NCBI RefSeq assembly: GCF_000213975.1
Contig: NZ_GL892076.1
Coordinates: 2,532,748-2,596,747 of the forward strand
Reading direction: 5' to 3'
Source: Centipeda periodontii DSM 2778
GTDB taxonomy: Bacteria; Bacillota; Negativicutes; Selenomonadales; Selenomonadaceae
DNA length: 64,000 nt
The notes beneath the pieces were generated by a model that saw only the letters and a list, made by a program, of their open reading frames with translations, did not search any database and was not told where the DNA came from. Shown here in pieces: positions 17,378 to 49,330 of this stretch (position 1 is the stretch's first letter; each line of letters opens with the position of its first letter). Position numbers and translations under genes: made by a program.

Positions 17378-17386
17378 CATTATCCC

Positions 17387-22194: not shown

Positions 22195-22223
22195 ATTATA
22201 CCGATACACAAAGAAGTAGTCCA
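22195..22223 (-). promoter_or_regulatory. Possible internal promoter before the LicC-like gene
   Basis: Minus strand TGGACT, 17 bases, TATAAT, in the 182-base gap between the PLP enzyme gene and the LicC-like gene. The -10 is consensus, the -35 matches four of six positions. Confidence 0.4.
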
Positions 22224-22245
22224 GCGTTTCCTTTCTTCTATCCTT

Positions 22246-23298: not shown

Positions 23299-23327
23299 CG
23301 TTTTCACCTTTATATCTTCCCACGGGA

Positions 23328-24179: not shown

Positions 24180-24230
24180 AGGGCCTTTCTCCCCTCTTCT
24201 CAAATCGATATGTCTCATAAAAGCAACAAT

Positions 24231-25406
24231 TTATGTCGACGTAACCCATGCGGGAAGAGGCACTTCCTGCATGATTTTATTCTCCACAAAACAAATTTTT
24301 TCCTCCGGTATTCCCTTCTGAATCATATCAAAGGCGATCTCTCTGCACAAGGATTCATTCAAAAGCGCAAGGACAAGCACATCAAACTCAGCCTTGTAAA
24401 GGTCAGACAAGGGATTAAGTGTAAGCTGCTGCAGTGCTTCTGACTGCCATGCCCGATCCGTCCACCCTGCGAGGGACAAATCTGCATGTCTCATAATCGC
24501 TCGATGCACCATACGTCCAAAAAGACCAGCGCCATAAAGGAAAACACGACAGCCCTTCGACACCTTTGAAAACGGAAACAATATGCCATAGGAGGAAAAG
24601 GCTTCATACTCCTGCTCCAAGAGAAGCATCTTCATATACGCATCTAGGCACTTCTTCCTCTCTACGGATCCATCCACCACTGTTTCTAAAAGCTGATAGA
24701 TGGATCGATACATTCCTTTTGGAAAGCCTCTCTGCTGCCTTGCCGCAGAACCATCACGGTGAATATAATGATACCATGCTCCCGGAATCGACAAGAGGCC
24801 GTTGCACGAAGCGCAGACCAAAAGCACCGCAACGACATCCTCTCCGTACACCATAGAAAGCGGAAGCTTCCTATGTACTGCTTGGATAAGCTTCGTACGA
24901 ATCAGCTTTGTACACAGACTGCCGATGATCGGTTCCCGAAACGTCGTATAGGAAAAAAACCAATCCTCCGGATGCTCCTGTAAATAAGCGGGGGCGTAAT
25001 ACCCTGCCTCTACTCCATTAAAAATTGCGTTTGAAGCATCTCCCTGCTCCTTCCAAAAGCCACACGCCACCACATCCGCTTGATACACGCGATTTGCCGC
25101 AACCATTTCCATAATGGCATCTGCCTCAATCCAGTCGTCCGCATCGACAAACGTCGTATATTCCCCCTTGGCGATACGCAGTCCCGCTTCACGTGCGCTG
25201 ACAACGCCGCCATTTTCCTTGTCGATGATACGAACGCGCGAATCCTGTGCTTCATATCGGAGAAGCACGGCAAGACTGTTGTCTGTCGAACCGTCGTTGA
25301 TACAGATGACATCAAGTTCCCGATACGTCTGTCCCAGCACACTGTCCAAGCACTTTTCTATATATTGTTCCACATTGTACACAGGGATGATGATGGAAAC
25401 AAGCAC
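24231..25406 (-). CDS. GT2 glycosyltransferase with C-terminal Rossmann module
   Basis: GT-A glycosyltransferase of 391 residues. The N-terminal catalytic domain has SIIIPVYNVEQYIEKCLDSV, ICINDGSTDNS and the DXD-type FVDADDWIEAD; the acceptor part ends near residue 270. A separate C-terminal module starts CRVFLYGAGLFGRMVHRAI (about 286-304) and continues as an alternating beta/alpha fold (FDVLVLALLNESLCREI). This glycine-loop module recurs in nine other proteins of the cluster. Start is GTG with GGAGG 8 bases upstream. Linkage and sugar are unknown. Confidence 0.85.
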   Translation of the reverse strand: MLVSIIIPVYNVEQYIEKCLDSVLGQTYRELDVICINDGSTDNSLAVLLRYEAQDSRVRIIDKENGGVVSAREAGLRIAKGEYTTFVDADDWIEADAIMEMVAANRVYQADVVACGFWKEQGDASNAIFNGVEAGYYAPAYLQEHPEDWFFSYTTFREPIIGSLCTKLIRTKLIQAVHRKLPLSMVYGEDVVAVLLVCASCNGLLSIPGAWYHYIHRDGSAARQQRGFPKGMYRSIYQLLETVVDGSVERKKCLDAYMKMLLLEQEYEAFSSYGILFPFSKVSKGCRVFLYGAGLFGRMVHRAIMRHADLSLAGWTDRAWQSEALQQLTLNPLSDLYKAEFDVLVLALLNESLCREIAFDMIQKGIPEEKICFVENKIMQEVPLPAWVTST

Positions 25407-25449
25407 TGCGGTATCCTCCAGAAAATCAGATATCTAACCTTGCAATCTT

Positions 25450-26994
25450 CTATCCGTCGATTTCAAACAGTATATGTGCCAATGAGGAAATCGGATACCC
25501 AACATACCTCCGTATATCCTCCCATATCTCCGCATACAACCCGTGCACGGTCACAACAATCAGATCCACGGACGGAAGCTGCTCAGAAAGCTGGTACGTG
25601 GGGCAATCCACATCGCGAGCGGAAACGGAGCGGTCGATGATGTAGTCGACCGTCACAGCAGAACCCTGCAGTTCCTTTTTCAAACGTATGCCCAAGTCGC
25701 CATAGCCGTAAATGGCAATGTTCCTTACGTTCTGTGCTATGAGGTAATCTGCCACACGCTTGCCGGCGTCTCGGATCTCCAGCCAGCGACAGAGCGTACG
25801 CGCTTCTTCCGTGCTCCTTACAGCCTCATAGGAAACGGTTGAGAGGCGCGGATCTTCCTCCGCAGCATCGGATGCTTCTCCTTCGAACATTTCTTCCTCA
25901 CGCATGACTTGGCGTATCGCCTCAAGGTACGCATACGCATATTCTTCATCCGGTTCCAGGATCATTCCTTCGCCCCACTCATTCCAAGCGTTGTAAAAGA
26001 GGAACGGATGCCCTTGATTGGCTGCCATGCGGACCGTCTTTCGCATCTGCTCTTGAAAATCGTTTGGCGAGAGCTTTGGCACAACGACCCCGGCCTCCCC
26101 TCTGCGCGGCGTATCATCATATCCATTCATGACAGAGGCATAGATATGCTTCCCGTTTCTATCTTTGGGTGCCTCCAATCGGAAAAACGCATCCCAGTAT
26201 ACCGCCGCATCATGATAGCGTATCCCCCCTGCCAGAAGCTTTGACGGAAGATATTGCCAAAGCGGCGCAGGGTCAGCCATGTAATAGGCATCGCAAGCAC
26301 TCTTTAAGCCTGCAAACGGAACTGCGCTATCATGTACCCCTGTAATCAGGTAAATCTCCTTATCACCATGATCCCGCAAATATGCATTCCAGCAGCAAAT
26401 CATATCCGAGAGGCAATAGACGGTCTCCGGATGATAAATCATGAACACGGGGCGTCCATCCATGCGAATATATCGGGCGTCCTGAAAAAACGGAAAGAGA
26501 TACCGAATATGCTCTTGCCATGCAGATTCGTTTCCGTACTTTTGCTCCATGAGCATCCCTGAATCGTCATCTTGCTCATCCGTCTCATATTGATCTGCCC
26601 AAGGAGATGCGTGTGCAATAGCACTCCACGTACGCGCCCATGATTCATTTGCCCAGTTGAAGCAAAACGGCATATCAATCTCTTTCCACCGCAGCAGATT
26701 TTCTGCCGGCTTTTCCAAGACCTGCCGTCCGTCCTTGAACCAGTAATGATAAAAGGAAAACCCGTCGATGCCGTACTTCTTTGCCAAATCCGCCTGCCAC
26801 TGCATCGTTTCTTTTTCGAGCAAATTGTAATACCGTTTGCCGAGCGGCACGATCGGCTGCTTATGCCCTTCAAAAAGAGACTTAGCCCCACGAGCAGCCG
26901 TCCATTCCGTAAACCCCTTCCCCCACCACCTGTCATTTTCAGGAGTGGCATGGAACTGCGGCAAATAAAATGCGATTAAGGACGGCTTCTTCAT
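25450..26994 (-). CDS. WbsX-like (GH99-type) protein with C-terminal Rossmann module
   Basis: The 514 residues begin KPSLIAFYLPQFHATPENDR and WWGKGFTEW, the opening of the WbsX family found in O-antigen and rhamnan clusters and related in fold to GH99. NWANESWARTWS, YNAWNEWGEGMILEPD and the ITGVHD segment are typical. Residues about 420-510 form an added module beginning RNIAIYGYGDLGIRLKKEL. WbsX proteins are thought to act on glycans, but biochemical function is not settled. The second of two close ATGs is used because AGGAG is 8 bases from it and only 2 from the first. Confidence 0.82.
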   Translation of the reverse strand: MKKPSLIAFYLPQFHATPENDRWWGKGFTEWTAARGAKSLFEGHKQPIVPLGKRYYNLLEKETMQWQADLAKKYGIDGFSFYHYWFKDGRQVLEKPAENLLRWKEIDMPFCFNWANESWARTWSAIAHASPWADQYETDEQDDDSGMLMEQKYGNESAWQEHIRYLFPFFQDARYIRMDGRPVFMIYHPETVYCLSDMICCWNAYLRDHGDKEIYLITGVHDSAVPFAGLKSACDAYYMADPAPLWQYLPSKLLAGGIRYHDAAVYWDAFFRLEAPKDRNGKHIYASVMNGYDDTPRRGEAGVVVPKLSPNDFQEQMRKTVRMAANQGHPFLFYNAWNEWGEGMILEPDEEYAYAYLEAIRQVMREEEMFEGEASDAAEEDPRLSTVSYEAVRSTEEARTLCRWLEIRDAGKRVADYLIAQNVRNIAIYGYGDLGIRLKKELQGSAVTVDYIIDRSVSARDVDCPTYQLSEQLPSVDLIVVTVHGLYAEIWEDIRRYVGYPISSLAHILFEIDG

Positions 26995-27012
26995 AACCAT
27001 TGCTCCTATCGA

Positions 27013-28068
27013 TTACCGTTTCACCAATATACAGCTTCCATGAATAAAGCTGATCAAATCCACTTCAGCAGCCAGCTCTTCAATGTCATTACAAAGCTTC
27101 TTTAGCTGTGGAGAAAGGTCTGTCTCTCGCAAATGCTCCCGACTTGTGACAACCTCTGCAACAACCTTCAACACATCGTACGCAGACACGGCGGCATCAT
27201 CGCATCCCATCCCCGCATACGCAGAAAAGCTTGTTTCAATATCCTCCACAATATACACCCCACCTGCAGTAAGCGCAGGAAACAGACGAAAGAGTGCCAG
27301 TATCTGATGACTCCAGTAATGCGACGCATCATCCACGATAATCGTCGGGTGCAATTCCGCAATCTCCTGCAATGTCGTATCCAGTGATAAATCTCGAATC
27401 CATACCGTACGATTCTCGCCTTGATATTGTTTGCAAGCGGGGTCGATGTCTATACCATAAACCTCAGCTTGAGGAAAATACTTCCCCCACATGGACAGAC
27501 TGCTACCTTTTAGAACACCCATCTCCACCAAAATCATCTTGCGTTCACGGAATGTCTGGAGGAAAAACTCATATTTTCGCAGATAATCGTGATGCACTTC
27601 CGCTTTATCCGTCTTCGTTTCCGCACCAATTTTTTCCAACTCATCAAACGACGCGAAATATTTTCCGGATTTCAACGTCATTCCAGTGGTTCCGTCAAGA
27701 TAGTCTGCGGCGTTTGGTACACTTCGCGTCGTGCCGGCACAAAAGACATCCTGCCCCATCCCCATTTTTTCCAAAACAGGCAGCACTTCACGACAATAAG
27801 AGTCTTTCATGGCAAGCAGTACGCCATCTCCCTCTTCGAATGACATCTTTGCAATCGGCATAATAGAAAACCCATGGAATTTGCTTTCCTGTGCAACTGT
27901 TGCGACCACACCGGACAGTGTAATTCCCTCATGCTCCAAGTACGCATACACACGCTCTGCCCATTCTCCCGCACCATAAAGAAAGATTCGCTTATGTGCG
28001 TGACAAAAATCGAGTAATTCCTGCCGAACGGGATATATGATTTCAAAAATCTCTTTGCTGCTTTTCAC
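27013..28068 (-). CDS. Methyltransferase with N-terminal Rossmann module
   Basis: The 351 residues combine an N-terminal glycine-loop module (KRIFLYGAGEWAERVYAYLE, about 26-45; continuing to about 120) with a C-terminal class I SAM methyltransferase of the MycE/cephalosporin-hydroxylase type: EMGVLKGSSLSMWGKYFP, VYGIDIDP, IIVDDASHYWSHQ and GGVYIVEDIETS with acidic metal ligands. It probably O-methylates a sugar. Start is GTG, overlapping the upstream stop, with AAGGAG about 10 bases ahead. Clearly more AT-rich than the LPS operon. Confidence 0.8.
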   Translation of the reverse strand: MKSSKEIFEIIYPVRQELLDFCHAHKRIFLYGAGEWAERVYAYLEHEGITLSGVVATVAQESKFHGFSIMPIAKMSFEEGDGVLLAMKDSYCREVLPVLEKMGMGQDVFCAGTTRSVPNAADYLDGTTGMTLKSGKYFASFDELEKIGAETKTDKAEVHHDYLRKYEFFLQTFRERKMILVEMGVLKGSSLSMWGKYFPQAEVYGIDIDPACKQYQGENRTVWIRDLSLDTTLQEIAELHPTIIVDDASHYWSHQILALFRLFPALTAGGVYIVEDIETSFSAYAGMGCDDAAVSAYDVLKVVAEVVTSREHLRETDLSPQLKKLCNDIEELAAEVDLISFIHGSCILVKR

Positions 28069-30107
28069 TTTGCTTGAACTCCTTCTTCTCTATCATGCGA
28101 GAACACGGCAGAGGACGTCAAAAGAATATCATTATAGAAACGGCTTCCTTCAAAGATGCGATTTTTAGCATCTTGGCTTAATCTTTCATGTTGAAAAAAG
28201 AGAACTGCTCCTATATTTACATTAAAGCCCTGCTCCGGAACATAGTATTTTCCGATAAACTCAGAAAAATAATCCATTACCCCTTGTTGTGCTTTTTTTA
28301 GCCATATTTTTTCACTATCTTCTTTTTCAAGCGCAGTGAACACAACCTCGCCATTCCCCCCATAGCCGGAAACACTTGCGTCATAAGAGGTACAAATGGT
28401 TTCCATAATCTTATTATTATCAGGGGTAAGCAATGCTGTTAATTGATTTTTAGGGAAAAGATACATTGCAGAAATACGAAGCGGTTCTCTGATCTTTCCT
28501 ATCTCACCTATGTAGTATATCATATTTAACCCCTCTATATTCCACGCAAAGATATTTTGCAAAAAATACTGGCTTGTTCCTGATGAGAGAATATCAACAA
28601 GTGCGTATTTCCCATTCTGCTTAATATCTTCCCGCTTTAGGTAGAGAGCAAAATTTTGATATTGTTCCTCGGATTCCTGTAAAGAGCGATTGCTGTCTAT
28701 GCACCCATCCTCAAAGAAGATAGCTCCTTCCGGCATCTGTTTTGCTATCTTTTTGATATCCTGCTTGCAAAGTCCCGCTCGTATTGCCGCCCTTCGAGAG
28801 GTATAGAAATAGCACCCCGGAGGTAAGTCCTCCGTCCTATCGGTATTGTTGCAGAACCACTGATACAGCTTCATAGGAAGGTATCCATCCCTTGCAACAA
28901 AAAGCAACTTCTCATAATCTTTATTGCGTACTTTTTGCACCAGCCAAAGGATATAGCACGTCAACAGCGGTCCCGCAAACGAAAATGCAAAGTCATATAT
29001 CCCCCATTCCTCTTCCGCTTCCTCCATTGCGTTTGCAAACGGATTTTGAAAACATCTTGATAGATATGTCCCAAGAAGTGTTCTGTCATTGACCGTCAAG
29101 AACATCTCAAGCCCTATAGAAGGGTCTCTCATCCTCCATATCTCAAGTGCTGACGGCACCCAGAACGTATCGATACCATAAAGATGTGCAGTCAAACAGT
29201 CAACTTGTTTATTATCGCCAACATGTAGAATCTTTCCGCTCGACGCAATGTTTTGTAAGACTCCGAATAGATTTTGACTCTTTGTCGTTCCTTCATATCC
29301 CGATATAATAATTTTTTCATAGCCTTCGATCCCATGATGGCATAGCAGTGCTCTTAGAAATTCTTCCGGCAAATACATATCTGTCGTCAAATATACAAGT
29401 TTCTTTTTCTGAATCGCATATCGAAATGCACGTACCACCGCGCTGCGCGCAACAATGACATCCCGCTCTGCTTCCAGCTCGGTATTCAACAAATACGCTC
29501 GTGTCTCATCGGTAAATCCATATGTTTTCTGCAGCTTGTCATAGATCGCATCCAGCGTGTGACAGCCCTCATCCAGCACGGAAAGCTCTGCCATGACACG
29601 ATTTGCCTTAAACTCCTCCACGCTGATGCCACTCCGCCCCCCTCGTGACGCCACAAGTTCGAATACATCTTCCGGATATAACGTTTTCCGCATGATAAGC
29701 GTATCAAAGATGTCAAAGCTGATCACATCATGTGCGTCAATTGCTGCGATAATATCATTAAAGGTTGCCGAGGCCTTGTCATTGTATTCAACACCAAATG
29801 TAGTTTGCCTCAGATTTCTTCCCATGACATCAAAAACATCTACATTATTTTGTGCGCAAAGCCTCTCAATCCGTCGAAAAATAATCTCTTCAACGGTCTG
29901 AGGCGCCGCAATGATGACAAGCTCCACGCCGATGGATGAGATATCCTTGATATCCCGAATCGGATATCCGCAAAATTCTCCATTCTTCCGCACGCGATCA
30001 AAGACCGCTGCAAGAGAGTTTCCACTGTAATTCTGAAAAAAATCTTTTGCGTAGGTCCCCGTGCCGTAGACTGCTATGCATGTATAATGATCCCAAAAGG
30101 CATCCAT
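28065..30107 (-). CDS. Large HAD-superfamily protein (COG5610-like) with N-terminal Rossmann module
   Basis: A 680-residue protein. Residues about 8-100 form a glycine-loop module (CIAVYGTGTYAKDFFQNYSG). The HAD part starts with SFDIFDTLIMR (motif I, about 130), then VYLTTDMYLP (motif II) and HVGDNKQVDC (motif IV), a set seen in the large COG5610 predicted hydrolases of polysaccharide clusters. The remaining 330 residues include LLFVARDGYLPMKLYQWF and YALVDILSSGTSQYFLQ, also characteristic of that family, of unknown function. AAAGGGA lies about 10 bases upstream. Its base composition is among the most AT-rich in the window. Confidence 0.78.
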   Translation of the reverse strand: MDAFWDHYTCIAVYGTGTYAKDFFQNYSGNSLAAVFDRVRKNGEFCGYPIRDIKDISSIGVELVIIAAPQTVEEIIFRRIERLCAQNNVDVFDVMGRNLRQTTFGVEYNDKASATFNDIIAAIDAHDVISFDIFDTLIMRKTLYPEDVFELVASRGGRSGISVEEFKANRVMAELSVLDEGCHTLDAIYDKLQKTYGFTDETRAYLLNTELEAERDVIVARSAVVRAFRYAIQKKKLVYLTTDMYLPEEFLRALLCHHGIEGYEKIIISGYEGTTKSQNLFGVLQNIASSGKILHVGDNKQVDCLTAHLYGIDTFWVPSALEIWRMRDPSIGLEMFLTVNDRTLLGTYLSRCFQNPFANAMEEAEEEWGIYDFAFSFAGPLLTCYILWLVQKVRNKDYEKLLFVARDGYLPMKLYQWFCNNTDRTEDLPPGCYFYTSRRAAIRAGLCKQDIKKIAKQMPEGAIFFEDGCIDSNRSLQESEEQYQNFALYLKREDIKQNGKYALVDILSSGTSQYFLQNIFAWNIEGLNMIYYIGEIGKIREPLRISAMYLFPKNQLTALLTPDNNKIMETICTSYDASVSGYGGNGEVVFTALEKEDSEKIWLKKAQQGVMDYFSEFIGKYYVPEQGFNVNIGAVLFFQHERLSQDAKNRIFEGSRFYNDILLTSSAVFSHDREEGVQAK

Positions 30108-30134
30108 ATCGGCACGTCCCTTTCCATCTTCTGA

Positions 30135-31766
30135 TCAACAGGTCATCCATGGATTTTCCCGTAAAAAATCGCGCCCCACTCTGGCATCATACCAAAGCAC
30201 ACGCGGGCGGGTCTTCAGATACGGCTCCAATATTGCCCAGAATTTGCTCTGAAGCATCTCGTCCTCCTCCGTATAGGAGAGTTTTCCGTCAAGACGCTCC
30301 AGCATTTCCTGCGTGACGGCTCGAATTTCCTCCGGCGTATTGGGAATAGGAACAATACCACACTTATCGTATTCCTCCATAACACGCACATTTCCGCTAT
30401 AAGCATAGGGCTGATCGGATAGATCCTCAATTTCAAGAATTTCACTGAGGTTCAGCAATCGGTTCTTTTCTTTTGACCAGAATTTATGATAAATCGCCAA
30501 ATCTCTTTCCCGAACAAAGGGAAAACTGCCATCTGCATAGCCGGTAATATTCGGCAAATTAATCATCACCATAGGTTTCGACCAGAATACCTGAAAGAAT
30601 ATTACACCGCTGTGGTCACCGAGGAAGAATTTACAATGCTTCGCCAGATAAAAATCCATAAAGTCACTATGAAAATCCTTCGCATAATCGACAATAGCAT
30701 CTACCTGCAAGGTAGATGCGGGAAAAGAACCGACACGGACAGAGGCAATGCCCCTGTCTTTTAGGAACTCTGCTGCAGAGAGAAACGTGCGAATATCCGA
30801 ATTCCGATAAAGATCCATAATCCTGAGAGGTTCGTCCATCGGCGCACACCAAGTCTTTTTATAATACCCGTCATCGCGCGCATAAATTGCGATAAAATCA
30901 CCATGTACACCCATTTTTTCTAATGCTGCACGACCGCTTTTTTCATCCTTATCAAGGCGGATAAGACCATCTTCCGTATTGCGAAACTCCCCTTGATGCA
31001 TCCGCTCAATGGATTTCTCCATAACATCCGTAACATAGCCATAGTCCGTATGGACTGCGAGCTTTTCCGGATGGTGTAAAAAAATGTACTTCCAAAATTT
31101 CAGATTATCTTCCCGCACACAACAGAAGTTTTTATCATCAAAGACGTTATAAAAGTATGCGTTCGGCTGTAAAAAATAGTTTTTCCTCGGATCTTCTTTA
31201 GTAGCAATAACATATAAGGTATACGCATGCTCCGCCATATCATATTTTTTTTGACAAAACAGCTCCAAGAGTGCTCCACCGATACTGTAGCCGAACCCTC
31301 TTTTGACTTCGATATGCTGATGTCCACCCAAAATCGCATGAAATTTTGCTTCATAACAGGAGGTTTCCGACTCAGAAAACCTTTCTTCTCTACGATTGCA
31401 AACCACAGCACACCAAGTCTGAAGTACAACAAAAAGCGGATCACCAATGCAATATAAGTCGGTTGAATGTATGCCTTTTGCCAAAAGGGAATCGCAAACC
31501 TTCCTCTGCCATTTTTCGGAAAGAGCTACGAATATTCCATCTCCATCAGAAAACTCTACCTCCGATAGATGACAGACAGCCACACCATCAATAGACGGCT
31601 TCCCTATGTATTCCCCGTCAGAAACAATATAGCCTGCGATGGATTGTTTTTCTTCTCCAAGGTACCATGCCAGCCACTGTGCATATTCACCGGCTCCATA
31701 GATAAAGATCCGATCATGCTGCATACAAAACGCCGCGATAGACTTCAACCGTTCCAAATAATCCAT
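30135..31766 (-). CDS. TIGR04372-type glycosyltransferase with N-terminal Rossmann module
   Basis: The 543 residues start with a glycine-loop module (RIFIYGAGEYAQWLAWYL, about 20-37, to about 115). The rest resembles the TIGR04372 putative glycosyltransferases: FIAIYARDDGYY, YRNSDIRTFLSAAEFLKDRG, SVRVGSFP and KHCKFFLGDHSGVIF. The ATG at 31766 follows GGGAAGGGGG closely; the only start further upstream is a TTG. The gene is AT-rich, like its downstream neighbour. Donor and acceptor are unknown. Confidence 0.72.
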   Translation of the reverse strand: MDYLERLKSIAAFCMQHDRIFIYGAGEYAQWLAWYLGEEKQSIAGYIVSDGEYIGKPSIDGVAVCHLSEVEFSDGDGIFVALSEKWQRKVCDSLLAKGIHSTDLYCIGDPLFVVLQTWCAVVCNRREERFSESETSCYEAKFHAILGGHQHIEVKRGFGYSIGGALLELFCQKKYDMAEHAYTLYVIATKEDPRKNYFLQPNAYFYNVFDDKNFCCVREDNLKFWKYIFLHHPEKLAVHTDYGYVTDVMEKSIERMHQGEFRNTEDGLIRLDKDEKSGRAALEKMGVHGDFIAIYARDDGYYKKTWCAPMDEPLRIMDLYRNSDIRTFLSAAEFLKDRGIASVRVGSFPASTLQVDAIVDYAKDFHSDFMDFYLAKHCKFFLGDHSGVIFFQVFWSKPMVMINLPNITGYADGSFPFVRERDLAIYHKFWSKEKNRLLNLSEILEIEDLSDQPYAYSGNVRVMEEYDKCGIVPIPNTPEEIRAVTQEMLERLDGKLSYTEEDEMLQSKFWAILEPYLKTRPRVLWYDARVGRDFLRENPWMTC

Positions 31767-31847
31767 CCCCCTTCCCGAACAATCGTATCCTACGAGCAAG
31801 GTATCTCAAAGAAGCTCTTCCTCATCCCTCTTTCTCCATACATTCCA

Positions 31848-32759: not shown

Positions 32760-32761
32760 TC

Positions 32762-34509: not shown

Positions 34510-34522
34510 GATGCCCCCCTCG

Positions 34523-35599: not shown

Positions 35600-35674
35600 T
35601 GTCGATTCCCTCCATGGATATTCTATGTGTACTATTTATCGTCTCTTTCCCGCACTCCGCAGCCCATCGCCATA

Positions 35675-36823
35675 CTACAACCCATAGTAATTCGGTTCAT
35701 TCCAATCTCCCAATACGATTTCGGTTAAAGACAGGTCATTCGGCATATCTGCCAACAGCGGGAGGTGCAACACCTTTTCTGATTCTTTCACCAAATCTTT
35801 CTTTATAAAAAGTGCTTCCATCGTTTCCGGGAACGGCTTTTGGTTGATGAACAGTACATTACCAAAATTATTACCATGCAGATGAACAAGTGCGTGTGTT
35901 TCCTGCAATCTCTTCAAGCAAGCTATATAGCGAGGCATGGATGCAAAATCCACCATCTCATGAAATTCGAGGACGATTTGGTCGAACTGTTCCAGCGTGT
36001 GTCTATTGGTATATTCTAGTACCCCCCACTCAGCACCTTCTACATCCATCTTTAGAATCATATGCTGTTCTTCTTCATGTCCATTTTGATGGATAAGCGT
36101 CGCAAGAGTCTTTAATTCTTCCGTATCTGTCGCGCCGTCAGCCACACCTAATTTGAAATAATGAAATTCATCGCGATAATAGGGCAGGTCTTGAATCGTA
36201 TGGTCGTACTGGAATACCTGAAAGCCTTTATCTGCCATCGCCGCGTCCCACGAAACATCATCGCATATGCCGAAAGAATATGCAATTGGATTTCGAAAGA
36301 TATTCTTCATGATGTATCCGCCATCACCATCCGCGCCGACACGAATAAAATCAGATCCGTCTGTATTTGTCACATGCATCGCCCGATGCAGAGTTTTGAT
36401 GAGTTCCTTTTCATGTGCATCAAACGCATCCCCTGTTTTATACTGATGATAGATGTGGTACGTACCAAGGATGGAAGATTTCTCCGGTTTTTCATGTATA
36501 ATCTGCGCAGAGGGTATCCCTTTCTCTTCGAGCCACAGGACAATTTCTTGACGGATTGCGTCGTTTACCACCGCAACAACGACATACTCACTTCCTGTAA
36601 AATCAATAGACTCCCTCTTGTCAATCTTCACGATACCATTATAGAAGGTAGACAACGGAGTCCCCGCATCGACCACTTGATGTAGGGTGCAATACTTCTC
36701 CGATCGAATCTGCGAATAGTATGACTGTCCAACCTCACCAAAACCATACAGGATAACAGAAGCACCCCTTGGAATCAAATGATACGGAAAGGCATATGTT
36801 GCCTGTAAATACTTCTGACACAT
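35675..36823 (-). CDS. FkbM-type methyltransferase with N-terminal Rossmann module
   Basis: The 382 residues pair an N-terminal glycine-loop module (SVILYGFGEVGQSYYSQI) with a C-terminal FkbM methyltransferase domain (KMDVEGAEWGVLEYT, LEFHEMVDF). FkbM enzymes O-methylate sugars or polyketides. The start is chosen at the ATG 6 bases after AGAGGGGG; a GTG and an ATG slightly upstream are alternatives. It follows the kinase-nucleotidyltransferase gene by about 25 bases. Confidence 0.8.
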   Translation of the reverse strand: MCQKYLQATYAFPYHLIPRGASVILYGFGEVGQSYYSQIRSEKYCTLHQVVDAGTPLSTFYNGIVKIDKRESIDFTGSEYVVVAVVNDAIRQEIVLWLEEKGIPSAQIIHEKPEKSSILGTYHIYHQYKTGDAFDAHEKELIKTLHRAMHVTNTDGSDFIRVGADGDGGYIMKNIFRNPIAYSFGICDDVSWDAAMADKGFQVFQYDHTIQDLPYYRDEFHYFKLGVADGATDTEELKTLATLIHQNGHEEEQHMILKMDVEGAEWGVLEYTNRHTLEQFDQIVLEFHEMVDFASMPRYIACLKRLQETHALVHLHGNNFGNVLFINQKPFPETMEALFIKKDLVKESEKVLHLPLLADMPNDLSLTEIVLGDWNEPNYYGL

Positions 36824-36848
36824 AAGCATCCCCCTCTTTGTAGACACC

Positions 36849-38393: not shown

Positions 38394-38416
38394 ACTTCCC
38401 TCCTTTGCTGTAGTCA

Positions 38417-39415
38417 TCATGTCTTGCCAAGATAGCGGAACCAGTCCTTCGTCGCCGTTTCGATCGTTTCCGTTGTCCAAACAGGCGCCTCTCGCCAATA
38501 GTCAATATTCGCTAAAATGTGCTTGACGCCCTCTTCCAACGCAACCTTCGGATGCCAGTCGAGCATCTTGGCGATCTTTGTCGTATCTGCCCATGTACAA
38601 TCCGGTTCTCCGGGACGTTTCGGGATATGGACAACCTCTGCCTCTTTTCCGCCGAGGAGTTCCACCAACCGATTCACAGAGTAGGTGTGCTCACTTCCGA
38701 CGTTAAACCGCTCTCCGACAATATCGGACTGCGCCGCCGTGTAGAACGCATCGACAATGTCCGTCACGTAGGTAAAATCGCGCGTCTGCTCCCCCGTCCC
38801 AACGACCGTGTAAGGCTTTCCGGCAAGTTTCTGCCCGAGGAACACGCCAAACACCGCGCCATATGTACCCGATGTGCGTGAGCGCGGTCCATAGACATTG
38901 AAGAGGCAAAGAGAAACGACGGGCAGTTGATACACCTTTGCCCAATGAAGGGCAAGTTCTTCGCCGAGACGCTTCGTCAGTGCATACGGATATTCGGGGC
39001 GGATCTCCGCCTGCTCATCCGTGGGGAAATGGTCGGGGATGCCATAGCACGAAGAGGATGCCGTATAGAGAAACCGCTTGACATTTGCCGCCTTCGCCGC
39101 CTGCAGGACGGCAAATGTGCCGTCCACATTGGCATGAAAATAGTCCTCCGGTCGCTGAATGGATGGAACGATGTCAGCGAGTGCCGCAAAATGGAAGACC
39201 CAGTCCGCACCGGAAAAAAGCGGCATGATTCGCGCAGAATCGCAAATATCCGCCTCAATCACGGTAAGTCGTGCATCTCCCTCGTGATGTGCAAGGTTCT
39301 CACGCCGCCCCGTCGAACAGTTATCAATGACAACGACCTCATGCCCCTCCGCAAGAAGCCTGTCTACCATGTGCGACCCGATAAAGCCGCACCCTCCCGT
39401 TACGATTGATTTCAT
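38417..39415 (-). CDS. NAD-dependent sugar-nucleotide epimerase/dehydratase
   Basis: Extended SDR protein (332 residues) of the GalE/WbpP group: NAD loop SIVTGGCGFIGSHMVDRL, ADWVFHFAALADIVPS, TASSSCYG and YALTKRLGE (YxxxK), C-terminal RPGEPDCTWADTTK. Probably epimerises or dehydrates a nucleotide-activated sugar. The ATG lies after a TGA of the GmhA-like gene; a GTG four codons upstream overlaps that stop. In this neighbourhood (GmhA, HldE-like) an NDP-heptose is a candidate substrate, though a hexose is equally possible. Confidence 0.85.
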   Translation of the reverse strand: MKSIVTGGCGFIGSHMVDRLLAEGHEVVVIDNCSTGRRENLAHHEGDARLTVIEADICDSARIMPLFSGADWVFHFAALADIVPSIQRPEDYFHANVDGTFAVLQAAKAANVKRFLYTASSSCYGIPDHFPTDEQAEIRPEYPYALTKRLGEELALHWAKVYQLPVVSLCLFNVYGPRSRTSGTYGAVFGVFLGQKLAGKPYTVVGTGEQTRDFTYVTDIVDAFYTAAQSDIVGERFNVGSEHTYSVNRLVELLGGKEAEVVHIPKRPGEPDCTWADTTKIAKMLDWHPKVALEEGVKHILANIDYWREAPVWTTETIETATKDWFRYLGKT

Positions 39416-39423
39416 AGCATTTC

Positions 39424-39975
39424 TCACTTCATTCCCATGCCATCCCGCGCCACGATGTCGTCAACAAGCTGTTGCAGTATCATGTTGTGGATGGATTCGA
39501 CCGGACCATACTCCATGCACGGAACGTATACGTTGATATCGCCCATGCCGCGTAGTTTGTTGTCGCCCTTGAACCCCGTAAATGTCACAATCTGGCATCC
39601 CTTTTCCCGCGCCACCTGCGTTGCATTTACGATATTGGGGGAGTTGCCGGAGCTGGATATGGCAACGAGCAGATCGCCTTCGTCCGCAATAATTTCGAGC
39701 TGTCTGCTAAAGACGAAATCATAGCCGAAATCATTTCCAAGACAGGTAAGGGTTGTCGGTTCGAGCATACTATGTGTCCGCATCCCACCATTTTTGAGAA
39801 AATCTGCGGACATATGCGTAGCAATGCCGGCACTGCCGCCATTGCCAATAAAATACACCATGCGTCGCTCACGTTTTACCAGAAAGAACTGCTCCAAAAG
39901 CGCAGCATACGATGCACCTTCGCCTCCTGTCCGTGTGTATTCCGTCTGATCAAGATGCGTAAAAATCTGTTTCAT
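39424..39975 (-). CDS. Phosphoheptose isomerase (GmhA-like SIS protein)
   Basis: SIS-domain protein of 183 residues with GNGGSAGIATHMSADFLKNG, the zinc/substrate region of GmhA, and LVAISSSGNSPNIVNATQVA. GmhA isomerises sedoheptulose-7-P to D-glycero-D-manno-heptose-7-P. TTAGGAGGG is 5 bases from the ATG used. The next two genes encode an epimerase and an HldE-like fusion; the 1,7-bisphosphate phosphatase GmhB is not recognisable in the cluster. Confidence 0.85.
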   Translation of the reverse strand: MKQIFTHLDQTEYTRTGGEGASYAALLEQFFLVKRERRMVYFIGNGGSAGIATHMSADFLKNGGMRTHSMLEPTTLTCLGNDFGYDFVFSRQLEIIADEGDLLVAISSSGNSPNIVNATQVAREKGCQIVTFTGFKGDNKLRGMGDINVYVPCMEYGPVESIHNMILQQLVDDIVARDGMGMK

Positions 39976-40069
39976 GGTATCCCTCCTAAACATTCGTTCC
40001 TACTCTTTGTTATTCCCTTATGGTCATGATTCACGAATCTCTAGGACGAATAAGCATCCTTCATCGTCT

Positions 40070-41554
40070 TTAGCTTCTGAACAGTTCAGGATAATAAAGA
40101 TCTCCAAATATGCTACGGCAGCCATGCTCTTCCAATAACTGTCGCACACTTTCATGATGTACGTAGTCCAATCCCAAAATGACAGACGTATCGCTCCAAT
40201 CCTCTATGCGGCAGACAGGAAGCACCGACCGGTCATGCAGGGACGATATTTCCGGCGTCGTTGACACAAGGAAGCCCTCAATTTCTATGCCGAGATGCTG
40301 CAAATACAAAAAGACCTTCTCTCCATATTCCCCCGCACCATAGCAGTAAACTTTTTTTCCGTGACAAAACTCCTTGACAGAAGTGTCCACCGACGCAATC
40401 CATTTCCACGAAACAGATTTTTTCATATCGGTATAATAGTGACATTGACACACCGCCTTCTCTTTAAATATATTGAGCGATGGTTCCCCTTTTTCCATAT
40501 AAGGAGATGCGTACTCTTTCCGTTTTGATTCGTAAATCCTTTTTTCTTCTACAGAAAGTGCCTCAATGGCGTCCTTGAAAATCTGCTCTTCTTGCTCTGT
40601 GGGGGCATCATTCAGATCATACAATGTTTTTTGCAAACTGATTCCAATCAGGGCATTTAATCGATTGGTACGCTTTCCACGGAGTTCCTCGCATCGGTCG
40701 ATCAGATACCCATGCTCCCCCGTAACCAAATTCAGATTGGTCGCATGATACCCCGGCAAAACTGCATGTTTCCAGCAGTCATGCGCCATAACTGAGGTGA
40801 AGTCACGCATACAGGAGTATTTTTGCGCGCAGTTTGCTCCGTTTGACTTTTCGGGAGAAACCGCGTGCATGACAGACAGGTTGTCATAAAGAGCAACATG
40901 CTTCTCCCCGATTGCTGCTATGATGAGATTCTGACCGAAATCGGGGACATCGGAAAGAAAAAACGTGCCATATTTATCCTCAATGGAATCAATGACGTTA
41001 CGATGTACAACACCTCCCATAATAGAGGCATAGGCAGTCCAAAGAAGCTCATTCCCGCAGGCACCCCAGCGTAAAATAAAATCAACCATTTCGTCCGAGG
41101 AAAAGATGCGCGTCCGCCCGGTTCTCTCCTTCCGCCGAAGAATAAAACCGCTTCCCTCATACTGATCTGATTGATGACACAAATACGCAAAATCCGCGCC
41201 TGAAAACACCGTCGCGGGAAAATGATGCGCTTTGATTTGGTCATAAAAAATTTGCAGGGAGTCTGTGTAATAATACATCTTATCCTGTATGAATCCAACA
41301 TATTCTCCCCGCGCAAACGATATTCCATACCGCCAATTATCAGCCATAGACAAGTCTTTGGGGGTATGATAATATCGAATCCGCTCATCCGAAAATGCTT
41401 GCACACACTTTTTGCAATCGAGCACGGAATCATTATCGCTCACAATAATTTCAAAATCGCGAAAGCTCTGCGCGAGCAGAGAGTGAATCGTCATCCACAC
41501 CAGACGCAGCCTTGCCTTCGTCGGTATGACAATCGAAAAAAATGGACGTTTCAT
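40070..41554 (-). CDS. GT2 glycosyltransferase with C-terminal Rossmann module
   Basis: The 494 residues start FFSIVIPTKARLRLVWMTIH and IIVSDNDS, a GT2 catalytic domain to about residue 330, where the usual DXD appears altered (FIQDKMYYYTDS). About 60 residues of charged helix lead to a C-terminal module, KKVYCYGAGEYGEKVFLYLQ (about 395-414), ending at the C-terminus. GGGAG lies 9 bases before the ATG. The module closely resembles those at 27013 and 30135 in the YGAGE loop. Confidence 0.8.
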   Translation of the reverse strand: MKRPFFSIVIPTKARLRLVWMTIHSLLAQSFRDFEIIVSDNDSVLDCKKCVQAFSDERIRYYHTPKDLSMADNWRYGISFARGEYVGFIQDKMYYYTDSLQIFYDQIKAHHFPATVFSGADFAYLCHQSDQYEGSGFILRRKERTGRTRIFSSDEMVDFILRWGACGNELLWTAYASIMGGVVHRNVIDSIEDKYGTFFLSDVPDFGQNLIIAAIGEKHVALYDNLSVMHAVSPEKSNGANCAQKYSCMRDFTSVMAHDCWKHAVLPGYHATNLNLVTGEHGYLIDRCEELRGKRTNRLNALIGISLQKTLYDLNDAPTEQEEQIFKDAIEALSVEEKRIYESKRKEYASPYMEKGEPSLNIFKEKAVCQCHYYTDMKKSVSWKWIASVDTSVKEFCHGKKVYCYGAGEYGEKVFLYLQHLGIEIEGFLVSTTPEISSLHDRSVLPVCRIEDWSDTSVILGLDYVHHESVRQLLEEHGCRSIFGDLYYPELFRS

Positions 41555-41578
41555 CAGTCGTGTCTCCCAATTTATACA

Positions 41579-42730
41579 TTACGCGTGCAACGTGTGAAAT
41601 ACAATCGTTCCTTTCGTACAAATACTCTCGCATTGCCTCTCGATTTCTTGTCGATATTGTTCGTTCATAACAATAACGACAACTTCTTCGGGACATGTTT
41701 GCAGAACTTCCGGGGATACAATCCGATGACCGGTTCCGACAAGAAAGTGTCCTTGTTTCTGTGGATTGATGTCAATAACAGCCTTAACAAGATGAGCCGA
41801 AGGGTCAAGCAAATTCAAAAAAGCAACTCCTTTTGCACCGGCTCCCCAGACAAAAACGGATCGCTCCTGTCGATTCCACGCCCGCAGACGCTCCTGCCAC
41901 TCCACACTGAACCGATTTTCCTGCTGTGCATACCACTCAGTACTGACCTGGACAGAGCGTATTTTCTTCGCCTCGATACACATATACTGACCACCAAACG
42001 TATTCGTGAAATAGGTCGGTGTAAAGTCATGTTCCTTCAAAAGTTCAACGATGGCTTCCGGCGAAAAAAAGCTGCAATGTTCGTAGACGATATCCTCAAA
42101 TGCGACATTCTCAAGAATCCAGTGGACATTTGGCGTCTCCAAAAACAATCGGACGTCCTCGGCATCGACAGCAGCGCACTCCCGCACGAGCATATGCGGA
42201 TCCGCTATATGTTCTATGGTATGACGTGAAACAAGCAGAATATGTTGATAGGGATGATTGATATAGGACCTTATTACCCCCCCCGCAAAATATTCTGAAA
42301 CATATCGTACGCATCCATCCGTCGCAGTGCCACGATATGCGGGGTCAAAGCCCAGCCCATCGCACTCTTTTTTCATGTAATGCAGAATACGCTGCAGAAA
42401 CGTGCCCTGTCCGCAGCCGATTTCTACGATGAGGGTGCTGCCCGACAACGTATCAGCACAATCCGCAATGCGTTTGGCTCGTGTATCCATATATTCTGAG
42501 AACGAGCGAGAGCACCCCTGATAGTTCTCGTAATCCTCACCGTAGGCAACTTGATCAAATACTGCATTTGTTACGAATTTACAGGATGCGCATTGGAAAA
42601 GCTGAATTTTTCCTACGGGAAAGGCTTTTGCTTTTGCATCCGTCTCACAAATGACATTTTGAAGAATCGGCACATTCTCTCTCACAGCAATCAAATGCAT
42701 CTCTGTGCCGTTGCATAAAGGGCATCTCAT
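41579..42730 (-). CDS. Zinc-ribbon SAM methyltransferase with C-terminal Rossmann module
   Basis: The 383 residues have an N-terminal zinc site (CPLC... about 3-6 and CASC about 52-55), a class I methyltransferase domain (LIVEIGCGQGTFLQRIL, SRHTIEHIADPHMLV) and a C-terminal Rossmann part (SVFVWGAGAKGVAFLNLL), the layout of NDP-sugar C-methyltransferases. Catalytic residues of the TylC3 group were not verified. The ATG overlaps the stop of the radical SAM gene. It may act on a sugar made by enzymes of this cluster. Confidence 0.8.
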   Translation of the reverse strand: MRCPLCNGTEMHLIAVRENVPILQNVICETDAKAKAFPVGKIQLFQCASCKFVTNAVFDQVAYGEDYENYQGCSRSFSEYMDTRAKRIADCADTLSGSTLIVEIGCGQGTFLQRILHYMKKECDGLGFDPAYRGTATDGCVRYVSEYFAGGVIRSYINHPYQHILLVSRHTIEHIADPHMLVRECAAVDAEDVRLFLETPNVHWILENVAFEDIVYEHCSFFSPEAIVELLKEHDFTPTYFTNTFGGQYMCIEAKKIRSVQVSTEWYAQQENRFSVEWQERLRAWNRQERSVFVWGAGAKGVAFLNLLDPSAHLVKAVIDINPQKQGHFLVGTGHRIVSPEVLQTCPEEVVVIVMNEQYRQEIERQCESICTKGTIVFHTLHA

Positions 42731-44166
42731 AAAGCTTGCTCTTCCCTCCTCTCTATTTTTTCCAATGTATTCATATAGTGATTATATGCAGCAATGTTAA
42801 CGTAGTATAGTTTCCCCTCAACGCCGGCATCATTGAGCTGCTTCACCATATCCGGCTGTACATCATCGGGAGTGAGAAGATAGATGCTCGGCGCATGAGA
42901 TTCCGCAAGATAGTCAACGGCATATTGAACTTCTACACCATCTATGATTGTTCCGCGCAAAGATGTATTGTTATCAATGCAAACACTTGGTATGTTCTCA
43001 TGGCGAAGCATCTTAATGGCTTTCTGCCCATTCTTGCCCGCGCCGCATATCACAACGGGATATGCGAGTTCCCTGATGGCGTCGAGCAGCATATCCGTCG
43101 TTGGGAATACCTCCACATACATTCCATGAGAAAAGCATGCCGCATCTATGTTGTCGCGATATACACTCGGTAGTTGTAATACATGATTTTCGTCATACTC
43201 CGCATGCCAAAGAAACGCGTATTCGCTTACCGTTGTGTGAAAGCCAAGTTCTCTTGCCTTATTGTACAAATAATGTGCCGCCTCGAATTCTTTTTTTCTG
43301 AAATAAAACGGTCCCACATTTTTTTCCTTTTGGTAGGAATTTGCCTCGCCTTCTACGCTGACACGAAGTACACCGGATTTTTTACACATGTCAAGAAATG
43401 CATCCATCTCTTCTTGGTCAGAGTTATAGTTGCATATATTATACTTGATTTCTACCTCTTCGGGATTTGCTTCGCAATAGCTCTTGATATTCGCCCATAC
43501 CGCATGGAAGCTGTCATTCCCCTTCATACGCCGAAAAACGGCAGGCGTTCCGGAATCCGGTGAAACGCGAACCGTCCCCATGCCGTTCTCCAGCATTTCC
43601 ATCGTTGCCTGCGATAAAACAATGGCATTCGTATTCACACGCTGCCGGTACCCCTTCTCCATCAAATACCGTACGGCATCTTCATAATGAGTATGCTGCG
43701 TCGGTTCTCCGCCCCCCCAGTCAAACCAAGCATCTTTCGCAAACATCCCCTCCCTGTCACACCGCTGCAAGACGGGGACGATATCGTGATCTTCACCATA
43801 CTCATCCGTATGTGCTGCACAATAAATACAGCGACTGTTACAATACATAGAAAGCCCGAGTATGACATGTGGTATTGGTGTAAAATGAAATATTTTCTTC
43901 CGGCATGCCTCGCATTTTCTGCAGGGGAAATCGGGGGACTGCATCTTTTTCATCAAATCATAAATGCGCTCGTAATAGGTCTCCGACCCAATCGTATCCC
44001 ATGAAGCAAGAGATTTTACCTCTTGCGGTTTCCAAGCAACATATTCGTGGCAAAGAGATACATTTCCCAGATCGAAGTTGATCCGTTTTCCATCCGTACC
44101 GGATATATCACAGATATAGATCTCTCTTCCCTCAAATTCCTCTTTTATCTTATCTATATAATTCAC
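42727..44166 (-). CDS. Radical SAM protein with C-terminal Rossmann module
   Basis: The 479 residues have an N-terminal pair of cysteines (CRKCEACRKK, about 81-90), the radical SAM motif SMYCNSRCIYCAAH (CxxxCxxC), a SAM loop FDWGGGEPTQ, and a C-terminal module YPVVICGAGKNGQKAIKML (about 365-383) with a typical acidic end of strand two (VCIDNN). Start is GTG with GAGGT 8 bases upstream. The coupling of a radical SAM enzyme to a sugar-cluster Rossmann module is unusual. Reaction unknown. Confidence 0.78.
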   Translation of the reverse strand: MNYIDKIKEEFEGREIYICDISGTDGKRINFDLGNVSLCHEYVAWKPQEVKSLASWDTIGSETYYERIYDLMKKMQSPDFPCRKCEACRKKIFHFTPIPHVILGLSMYCNSRCIYCAAHTDEYGEDHDIVPVLQRCDREGMFAKDAWFDWGGGEPTQHTHYEDAVRYLMEKGYRQRVNTNAIVLSQATMEMLENGMGTVRVSPDSGTPAVFRRMKGNDSFHAVWANIKSYCEANPEEVEIKYNICNYNSDQEEMDAFLDMCKKSGVLRVSVEGEANSYQKEKNVGPFYFRKKEFEAAHYLYNKARELGFHTTVSEYAFLWHAEYDENHVLQLPSVYRDNIDAACFSHGMYVEVFPTTDMLLDAIRELAYPVVICGAGKNGQKAIKMLRHENIPSVCIDNNTSLRGTIIDGVEVQYAVDYLAESHAPSIYLLTPDDVQPDMVKQLNDAGVEGKLYYVNIAAYNHYMNTLEKIERREEQAL

Positions 44167-44177
44167 AATGTCTTACC

Positions 44178-45580: not shown

Positions 45581-45590
45581 CGCATTTTCC

Positions 45591-46823
45591 TTATAGAACC
45601 TTCACAGAGGGGATCGAAACAATAAACTTGCCCCCCCACTCTCTGATGCACGCCATTTCCTCTACGATTTCATCGGTAAGATTCCACGGGAGTATGAGAA
45701 CGTAATCCGCTTTCACTTTCTCTATCTCACTTGGCGCAAGCACGGGAATCCTGGAACCGGGAAGCAGCGTATTTTGCTTGTAGGGATTTTTATCCACAAT
45801 AAAATCCAAGAACTCTGTCCCAATCCCACAGAAGTTCAGGAGTGTATTTCCCTTTGCCGCTGCACCATAACCGACAATGCACTTCCCTGCGCGTTTGCAC
45901 TCTATCAGCAGCTCCAAAAGGTCATATTTGATTTTCTTCGCCTTCTCATCAAACGAAGTATACGTTCCAAGCTTCTGCAATCCGTGTGCCTCTTCCTCCG
46001 CAAGGATCGCGTCAACCGAAGGACATAAGGCATGCCGACTGCTTGTCTCGCGGCAAGCATAGACACGAAGCGAACCTCCATGCGTTGGAAGCGTTTTGAC
46101 ATGAAAAATACGCAGTCCATGTGCCGCGAAAATCTGTCGCACCGTGTACAGCGAGAGATAAGAAAAATGCTCGTGGTAAATGGTGTCGAACTCGGCTTTT
46201 TCAATGAGATGAAGGACATGCGGAAATTCCATTGTAAGAATCCCATCATCCGCGAGAATAATACGCATTCCTTCCACAAAATCATTGATGTCCGGAACGT
46301 GTGCCAACACATTATTACCCAGAAGCAGATCTGCCTTTTTTTCCTCTTTCACGAGCTGTTCCGCAAGGCGCGTGCCGAAAAAATCGACGACGGTCTCAAT
46401 CCCTTTTCCAACGGCAATTTTCGCTACATTCGCAGCGGGCTCAATGCCCAGTACAGGGACCCCCTTCTCCTTGAAGTATTGCAGGAGGTATCCATCATTG
46501 CTCGCGATTTCGATAACACGCGTATCTGCCCCTATGCCATAGTGCTCCATCATGTGTTCTGTGTATTTCTTGGCGTGAGCAAGCCAACCCTGCGAATAGG
46601 AACTAAAATAGGCGTACTCCTCAAAGATATCCTGTGGAGATTCGAATTCATCAAGCTGCACGAGAAAACACTGTTTGCATACACGAACGTGAAGCGGATA
46701 CGTCATTTGTCCCATATCTTCATTTTCTTTGGAGATATAGGAGTTTGCAAGAGGCGACATCCCTAAGTCGATCATCGTGTCGTCCAAGCGCGACTTACAA
46801 AATCTACAGCAATGCTCCCTCAT
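45591..46823 (-). CDS. NDP-sugar C-methyltransferase
   Basis: The 410 residues have an N-terminal zinc site (CRFC, CKQC), the signature LGMSPLANSYI, a SAM-binding core (VIEIASNDGYLLQYF, GNNVLAHVPDINDFV), EFPHVLHLIEKAEFDTIYHE and the C-terminal Rossmann domain CIVGYGAAAKGNTLLNF plus DFIVDKNPYKQ. This is the TylC3/Methyltransf_13-14 family that methylates C3 of 4-keto deoxysugar nucleotides. The ATG at 46823 has AAAGGAA upstream and fits the family length; an ATG eight codons earlier overlaps the upstream stop (ATGA) and is a fair alternative. Confidence 0.88.
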   Translation of the reverse strand: MREHCCRFCKSRLDDTMIDLGMSPLANSYISKENEDMGQMTYPLHVRVCKQCFLVQLDEFESPQDIFEEYAYFSSYSQGWLAHAKKYTEHMMEHYGIGADTRVIEIASNDGYLLQYFKEKGVPVLGIEPAANVAKIAVGKGIETVVDFFGTRLAEQLVKEEKKADLLLGNNVLAHVPDINDFVEGMRIILADDGILTMEFPHVLHLIEKAEFDTIYHEHFSYLSLYTVRQIFAAHGLRIFHVKTLPTHGGSLRVYACRETSSRHALCPSVDAILAEEEAHGLQKLGTYTSFDEKAKKIKYDLLELLIECKRAGKCIVGYGAAAKGNTLLNFCGIGTEFLDFIVDKNPYKQNTLLPGSRIPVLAPSEIEKVKADYVLILPWNLTDEIVEEMACIREWGGKFIVSIPSVKVL

Positions 46824-46843
46824 CTGGTTGGATTCCTTTCCTT

Positions 46844-49279: not shown

Positions 49280-49330
49280 CACGCCTACCACACTCCACCC
49301 AAGATTATTCCATATATATGTATCGAAAAG

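Follow-up and report, generated by a model that had tools for sequence, protein, structure and literature searches.

Why should enzymes of differing chemistry, gathered in one glycan cluster, carry the same small domain? The question is raised by a stretch of Centipeda periodontii DSM 2778 DNA (contig NZ_GL892076.1), analysed as a window of 64,000 nucleotides in whose coordinates all positions are given here. An initial annotation had noticed glycine-loop motifs in ten proteins of the window, and proposed that one module was attached to ten unrelated glycan enzymes. We find that the ten segments are one homologous family of Rossmann-like accessory domains of about 100 residues.

A Rossmann-like domain in ten proteins of one cluster

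All ten motifs were present in minus-strand open reading frames (ORFs), and the N- or C-terminal placement assigned earlier was correct for every one. The partners are less diverse than first described: two are family 2 glycosyltransferases (GT2), and four are methyltransferase-like proteins of several families. Module coordinates are those of the hidden Markov model (HMM) match plus 3 residues before it and up to 8 after; proteins are named by their first coordinate.

24252..24572, minus strand: module, C-terminal in the GT2 protein 24231-25406 (HMM match at residues 282-377, E = 2e-11; GT2 Pfam match at 4-125)
25477..25770, minus strand: module, C-terminal in the WbsX protein 25450-27000 (residues 414-500, E = 4e-13; WbsX Pfam match at 8-362; own structure model, pLDDT 91)
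27721..28053, minus strand: module, N-terminal in the methyltransferase-like protein 27013-28068 (residues 9-108, E = 9e-18; structure model, pLDDT 89)
29802..30107, minus strand: module, N-terminal in the HAD-like protein 28065-30107 (residues 2-94, E = 1e-12)
31437..31754, minus strand: module, N-terminal in the TIGR04372 glycosyltransferase 30135-31799 (residues 19-113, E = 4e-19; TIGR04372 at 301-524)
36464..36787, minus strand: module, N-terminal in the FkbM-type methyltransferase 35675-36847 (residues 24-120, E = 5e-12; FkbM at 237-304)
40082..40402, minus strand: module, C-terminal in the GT2 protein 40070-41554 (residues 388-483, E = 4e-19; GT2 at 7-112)
41582..41914, minus strand: module, C-terminal in the methyltransferase 41579-42730 (residues 276-380, E = 2e-18; Methyltransf_14 at 267-375, E = 5e-13)
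42742..43080, minus strand: module, C-terminal in the radical SAM protein 42727-44166 (residues 366-467, E = 8e-17; Radical_SAM at 108-248)
45630..45941, minus strand: module, C-terminal in the sugar C-methyltransferase 45591-46868 (residues 313-405, E = 6e-11; Methyltransf_14 over its full length, E = 1e-63)

Protein 27013 has a weak Methyltransf_24 match at residues 181-277, below the Pfam cut-off. Protein 28065 is itself without a Pfam match, several of its plasmid relatives being annotated as HAD-IA hydrolases, and in 35675 the NeuD family model of NCBIfam matches residues 31-120 (E = 2e-6), below its cut-off. Catalytic-domain matches, where there is one, stop before or start after the module. 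This places the glycine loops outside ordinary catalytic domains and in a separate module, as had been supposed.

Direct BLAST comparison linked modules 27013 and 40070 (E = 7e-17), 27013 and 30135 (1e-16), 24231 and 27013 (1e-9), 41579 and 45591 (6e-8), and 24231 and 35675 (8e-7), values that are generous because the database held ten sequences only. Similarity crossed both partners and termini, the N-terminal module of 27013 matching the C-terminal module of 40070 at 34% over 85 residues. An iterated HMM seeded with five modules also matched the remaining five (E = 6e-11 to 2e-18 in the last round, when these were already within the profile). At 0.001 this HMM matched 159 of 743 distinct ORFs from the window and other loci, true Rossmann enzymes such as KARI included. 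A later profile, A3, was built from 116 module rows, the window's ten among them. Searched against the 2.76 Mb genome (limit 0.01), it gave ten matches with E = 2.5e-11 or better, all inside the 22 kb cluster; the next was KARI at 55447-56517 (E = 3e-5), an ordinary enzyme. Pfam assigns the module in two of the ten proteins, 41579 and 45591, both as Methyltransf_14 and both above its cut-off, which agrees with their earlier description as carriers of the known C-methyltransferase C-terminal domain. Because Pfam leaves the module unnamed in the other eight, its recurrence over many enzyme types is easily overlooked.

Structure prediction gave a common fold. Model 1, produced with AlphaFold2 from the ten aligned window modules with 27013 first, had a pLDDT of 89 and a pTM of 0.82. 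Model 2 represents the WbsX module with its own family only, that is window protein 25450 and ten relatives (one Mitsuokella and nine Lachnospiraceae or Lachnoclostridium records), and had a pLDDT of 91 and a pTM of 0.86. Both are Rossmann-like alpha/beta structures, and their alignments have one window row in common, so that two confident models from largely separate alignments bear out the common Rossmann-like module proposed earlier. Predicted secondary structure and motif counts likewise showed the beta-alpha-beta unit, the glycine-rich loop and the acidic end of strand 2 that mark this fold. In the VIA tables, where a missing family is not thereby ruled out as a relative, the first match of both models was 2g6t_A (Z = 11.0, root-mean-square deviation (rmsd) 2.6 over 93 residues for model 1; Z = 10.0, rmsd 2.6 over 91 for model 2), tied in each case within 1 Z of the following rows. 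For model 1 these were WbaP (Z = 10.4, rmsd 2.4 over 87), PerB (9.7), Rex (9.4) and a chain of UDP-quinovosamine 4-dehydrogenase (9.3). WbaP was also its sole Foldseek match under E = 0.001 (E = 2.7e-4). By sequence, the profile's top-scoring PDB entries include those of Rex (9e-12), quinovosamine dehydrogenase (one chain, 2e-11), VioB (9e-6) and WbaP (2e-5). VioB, PerB, PglB and the C-methyltransferase KijD1 are also among the sequence or structure matches, and nucleotide-sugar ligands are mentioned in the PDB titles of VioB, PerB and KijD1.

Partner enzymes, recurrence and genomic setting

A five-row profile, searched at 0.001 against 398 genomes of the phylum, matched in 38. In another draw of 398 genomes, searched with A3 at 1e-8 with at most 12 candidates scored per genome, at least one match occurred in 207 and four or more in 23; lone matches are probably often ordinary Rossmann proteins. 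Among 14 genomes of the genus, the window genome had 10 matches and the other 13 had 0 to 6. Modules were mapped in the window and in 15 other stretches picked by five-row profile matches, the 5.1 kb stretch of genome G226, one of 20 considered, being left out. The richest region, in G322, held 15 module genes (with the module on 12 of 13 ORFs selected at 141453-159651), followed by G144 (14), G340 (13), G303 (10 and 5 in two regions), G040 (8), G395 (7), G183 and G309 (6 each), G373 and G386 (5 each), G346 and G097 (4 each), G238 (3) and G307 (1). Removal of KARI by hand reduced 117 mapped rows to 116, among which a few ordinary Rossmann proteins may remain. The module is N-terminal in 58, C-terminal in 52, and in the middle or in short ORFs in 6.

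The arrangement was also found in ten named records with WbsX relatives, each having 3 to 8 module ORFs among 4 to 13 per stretch, WbsX counted; the WbsX module itself scored at 1e-4 in nine of them. By similarity, a module-bearing relative of 28065 lies on a Paenibacillus replicon. A module-bearing HAD-type protein occurs on a plasmid of Brachyspira hyodysenteriae (Spirochaetota), where five radical SAM/SPASM genes stand in a row beside it (L093:9371-14621 and 17073-18230); a further radical SAM gene of this plasmid also bears the module. The [Eubacterium] eligens relative from the plasmid search had no module at 0.001, and the phage search returned three weak partial matches to GT2 protein 40070, each time to the glycosyltransferase part only. 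Tandem module pairs were seen within single ORFs (L069:1647-2795 and L065:834-2945), as was one family with a mid-protein module (L047:5299-7677, L050:13427-15700 and L053:3933-6194), in which a cytidylyltransferase domain follows the module in the two proteins scanned singly.

To compare enzymes with and without the module, 111 of the 116 carriers (four short ORFs and one truncated at the edge of its stretch being set aside) were compared with 109 of 112 non-carriers from 15 clusters including the window (three truncated ORFs being set aside). An ORF counted as a non-carrier if it lay on the same strand within 4 kb of a module run and had at least 150 residues, a definition that takes in one transposase and one flagellin. 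Removal of the module and clustering of the remainders gave 46 partner classes over 116 proteins, between which distant homologues may be split. At 1e-5, Pfam families in carriers were Glycos_transf_2 (23), FkbM (13), Glycos_transf_1 (8), Radical_SAM (8), Glyphos_transf (5), WbsX (3), TylF (3) and CTP_transf_like (3); single scans added PIG-L, GNAT, DUF4422, GT11, TupA ATP-grasp, TIM-barrel and B12-binding radical SAM partners. Non-carriers had GT2 (10), Radical_SAM (8), NTP_transf_3 (8), Epimerase (7), DegT (6), GDP_Man_Dehyd (6), RmlD (6), Glyphos_transf (5), Glycos_transf_1 (4) and CTP_transf_like (4). The tallies show 25 families, so that 'at most' denotes an upper limit: NTP_transf_3, Epimerase, DegT, GDP_Man_Dehyd and RmlD each occur in at most 1 of 111 carriers, and FkbM in at most 2 non-carriers. 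By these counts, the module is enriched on glycosyltransferases and FkbM methyltransferases and scarce on the usual enzymes of sugar-nucleotide synthesis. In the window, the ten carriers and the thirteen non-carriers (ten of the latter scanned singly) split similarly.

Pairwise alignment Z-scores were compared for the 116 modules. Pairs from the same cluster with different partners (n = 456) had a mean Z of 5.41 and a median of 3.61, against 4.78 and 3.66 for pairs differing in both (n = 5818); pairs from different clusters with the same partner (n = 364) had a mean of 8.57. Modules within a cluster were not clearly more alike than those between clusters, and a cluster-specific docking code was not supported overall. 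Exceptions were G395 (13.2 within, 5.2 outside), G097 (15.1, 6.5), G386 (11.8, 6.9) and G346 (7.8, 4.6), with the opposite trend in G040 (2.6, 3.7). On a tree of the 116 modules, made by a quick method from a short, poorly resolved domain whose noise inflates counts of change, partner labels (classes with two or more members) changed 47 times. The minimum was 19, and 200 label shuffles gave 63.2 (standard deviation (sd) 1.6). Terminus changed 27 times (shuffled 36.9, sd 2.6), cluster 82 times (shuffled 88.8, sd 2.4, lowest 79), and GT2 versus the rest 20 times (shuffled 21.4, sd 1.3). We read these patterns as a module that appears to have been swapped repeatedly between partners, with partial inheritance with the partner, and to have spread internally in a few clusters.

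The genomic setting suggests a link to flagellin. The flagellin gene nearest to the cluster is:

577..1983, minus strand: flagellin gene (Flagellin_N, 4e-36; Flagellin_C, 5e-19)

Flagellin was found in 23 of 23 module-rich genomes, against 321 of 398 in the phylum (Fisher P = 0.006, provided that both counts drew on the same 398 genomes, as the identical totals suggest). In 21 of the 23, a module cluster lay within 50 kb of flagellin on the same contig, and in 15 within 25 kb. The expectation under random placement was 2.04, and none of 20000 simulations exceeded 8, with a null that leaves contig breaks aside and takes spans and positions from the listed rows. In the two exceptions, G353 and G373, the modules are on another contig than flagellin, and in G226, one of the 21, the flagellin match is only partial. 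Within 50 kb of the modules, a lipid-linked initiating enzyme (PF02397) and a PF01943 flippase each occurred in 1 of 23 genomes. As a group, the module clusters look like flagellin glycosylation islands, glycan clusters that lie close to flagellin genes and have no lipid-linked initiating enzyme or flippase of their own; the case is weaker in the window itself. At L096:4154-17530, a 4458-residue YDG-domain protein, another possible glycosylation target, adjoins the flagellin gene.

A possible nucleotide ligand and its alternatives

Conservation within the module was concentrated around the glycine loop. Of 116 modules, 114 have an aromatic residue directly ahead of GxG, 101 retain GxG itself, and 96 close strand 2 with a D or E. 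Besides the hydrophobic core, conserved columns of the 116-row alignment, as read off the column table rather than mapped onto coordinates, fall mostly at the putative nucleotide site, while most other polar positions vary. Such a pattern speaks for ligand binding rather than for a docking face conserved throughout the family. For WbaP, the isolated accessory domain is reported to gain stability with UMP, UDP and UTP and to lose it with UDP-Gal; the full-length enzyme is inhibited by UMP with a half-maximal inhibitory concentration of 4.1 uM, perhaps at both the domain and the active site (PMC10942596).

By analogy with this uridine nucleotide-binding relative, each module may bind a small nucleotide ligand and so couple the attached enzyme to the nucleotide-sugar pool, as a sensor or handle across a glycan assembly line. 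We give this reading, the likeliest of those considered, a little under an even chance. The glycine loop would bind a UDP/UMP-type nucleotide or a nucleotide-sugar, and the bound ligand would couple the partner's activity or substrate handling to the pool. One kind of sensor or handle would then be common to most steps of a single cytoplasmic assembly line, whose most likely target is flagellin. The initial annotation had offered nucleotide-sugar sensing as one of two functions, and binding of a nucleotide or nucleotide-sugar gains indirect support from the site residues, the most conserved outside the core, and from nucleotide-binding relatives among the best matches. A broader form, in which a general mobile module on most cytoplasmic flagellin-glycan enzymes acts as a common ligand-gated control or recruitment signal whatever the chemistry, is possible, though rather unlikely.

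Several observations weigh against a nucleotide sensor on a flagellin assembly line. The likeness to WbaP was weaker for model 2 (VIA Z = 8.1 with rmsd 4.6 over 96, one of many ties), for which Foldseek gave no matches under 0.001. Rex ranks equally high in sequence (9e-12) and is among the leading structural matches (Z = 9.4 and 9.0). Rossmann-like folds also bind NAD(H) or CoA, and the fold alone cannot separate NAD, CoA and nucleotide-sugar. GxG is missing in 15 of 116 modules, among them that of 45591 in the window, which has no second G. Many carriers (methyltransferases, radical SAM proteins, a deacetylase) release no UDP, and simple product feedback is therefore unfit for them. There is no bias for Radical_SAM (8 carriers and 8 non-carriers), Glyphos_transf (5 and 5) or CTP_transf_like (3 and 4), so that the module is absent from some copies of a family. 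The target is also less certain than the 23 genomes suggest: in the window, flagellin lies 22.7 kb from the nearest module with lipid A and Kdo-transfer genes in between, and in G303 the second module set (contig 14, L046; five genes) has a lipid-linked initiating enzyme at a distance of 16.6 kb. Flagellin is thus not the sole possible target, and the module is not confined to flagellin islands.

In a docking role, the module would attach to a common partner, be it flagellin, a flagellin chaperone or another module, and so bring soluble enzymes together at the acceptor. This role seems unlikely, yet has several points in its favour. The module sits on many assembly enzymes and few precursor makers, its clusters are near flagellin genes, and two studies offer precedents: the C-terminal TPR domain of Maf-1 and the need of Maf-2 for GlfM in flagellin binding (PMC13317340), and the WbaP accessory domain, which provides most of the dimer contact (PMC10942596). 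Against docking stand the conservation at the nucleotide site and the lack of clear overall similarity within clusters, present though it is in a few. A hub or scaffold gene was not found either, no non-carrier family occurring in more than 8 of 15 clusters. The second function first suggested, that the domain holds a multi-enzyme assembly together, received no direct support. The clusters showed no scaffold gene in common and no docking code of their own, though docking would be compatible with both results.

The module could instead be part of the active site and grip the nucleotide half of a nucleotide-sugar, as in sugar C-methyltransferases. Two of the ten match the C-terminal family of those enzymes, and KijD1, crystallised with a dTDP-sugar product according to its entry title, resembles the module (VIA Z = 8.2, rmsd 3.1 over 97). 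However, GT2, GT4 and similar glycosyltransferase domains possess their own donor sites, and the mixture of N-terminal, C-terminal and other placements makes one shared active-site geometry unlikely; we judge such a handle unlikely. An NAD(H) redox sensor of the Rex kind is much less likely still. The profile finds no better PDB sequence match than Rex, which also stands high in the VIA tables, but the other leading matches are glycan-pathway domains, and the aromatic residue found before GxG in nearly all modules contrasts with LIGVG in the single aligned Rex row (LIYGAG in that of quinovosamine dehydrogenase). That ordinary, unrelated Rossmann segments met by chance in one cluster is scarcely credible: the profile does reach true Rossmann enzymes such as KARI, but modules of different partners have significant direct similarity, all ten strong genome matches fall in one cluster, contrary to a chance origin, and the pattern recurs in other genomes.

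If the module does sense a nucleotide, many steps of a glycan pathway could be controlled together, and what was found for WbaP alone would apply to a whole assembly line. The module also offers a handle for finding flagellin-glycan clusters, and makes the coordination of soluble glycan enzymes without a lipid carrier a testable question.

Further genes of the window are of note. Those at 21335-24218 and 46844-49291 lack the module and encode an NTP_transf_3 cytidylyltransferase, a class I aminotransferase, LicD and a TagF-like protein of the Glyphos_transf family. At 36849-39993, a CTP_transf and PfkB fusion, presumably HldE-like in reversed order, and a small protein that we take to be a GmhA-like SIS isomerase suggest a heptose precursor. 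Two adjoining genes within the glycan cluster (32762-34509) appear to encode half-transketolases, the name of the second being our assumption, and a branched sugar is possible.

Comparison with known systems

The module is related to PglD_N, Methyltransf_14, the accessory domain of WbaP and the N-terminal domain of 2g6t. The earlier proposal of a likeness to PglD_N and Methyltransf_14 was supported by Pfam and by profile and structure matches. Proteins 45591 (213.9 bits) and 41579 (49.6 bits) are members of Methyltransf_14 (PF08484, gathering cut-off 23.5) and alone pass its cut-off, the other eight window proteins being without a match. The PglD_N (PF17836) or NeuD N-terminal domain has the same fold as the module and matches 10 of 111 carriers at 0.001; no window protein passes its gathering cut-off of 23.4 bits, the best being 24231 with 13.7 bits. 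PglD and NeuD differ in carrying a left-handed beta-helix acetyltransferase, no hexapeptide domain being listed in any of the ten. The first VIA match of both models, 2g6t, is an uncharacterised Clostridium acetobutylicum protein aligned over residues 1-99, which we take to be CAC2185 of the Pfam family C2185-like_N (PF22674). That family matches 5 of 111 carriers at 0.001 and is listed for none of the ten window proteins.

Glycan clusters near flagellin are known from the flagellin glycosylation islands of Clostridia and Geobacillus, and FkbM methyltransferases are reported in Geobacillus islands and cytidylyltransferase and TagF-like enzymes in C. difficile (PMC5109656, PMC10714395, PMC13317340). 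The known islands differ in that the text covered by word searches makes no mention of a comparable accessory domain common to several enzymes, 'Rossmann' occurring 0 times in the three papers. Within the part of the literature covered, no title or abstract opening was found to report this shared module. The module-free window genes at 21335-24218 and 46844-49291, including cytidylyltransferase 21335 and TagF-like 46844, are similar to the branch for amino-acid phosphate in the type A flagellin glycan pathway of C. difficile (PMC10714395), which is a resemblance and not a test.

WbaP is a large phosphoglycosyl transferase, and at E up to 1 Pfam does not list its accessory domain (PF13727, CoA_binding_3) in the ten window proteins. 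It is likewise a Rossmann-like accessory domain on a glycan enzyme, with the same fold. It differs in lying between transmembrane helices and in serving one catalytic type, whereas the window modules occur on many enzymes and outside a transmembrane setting.

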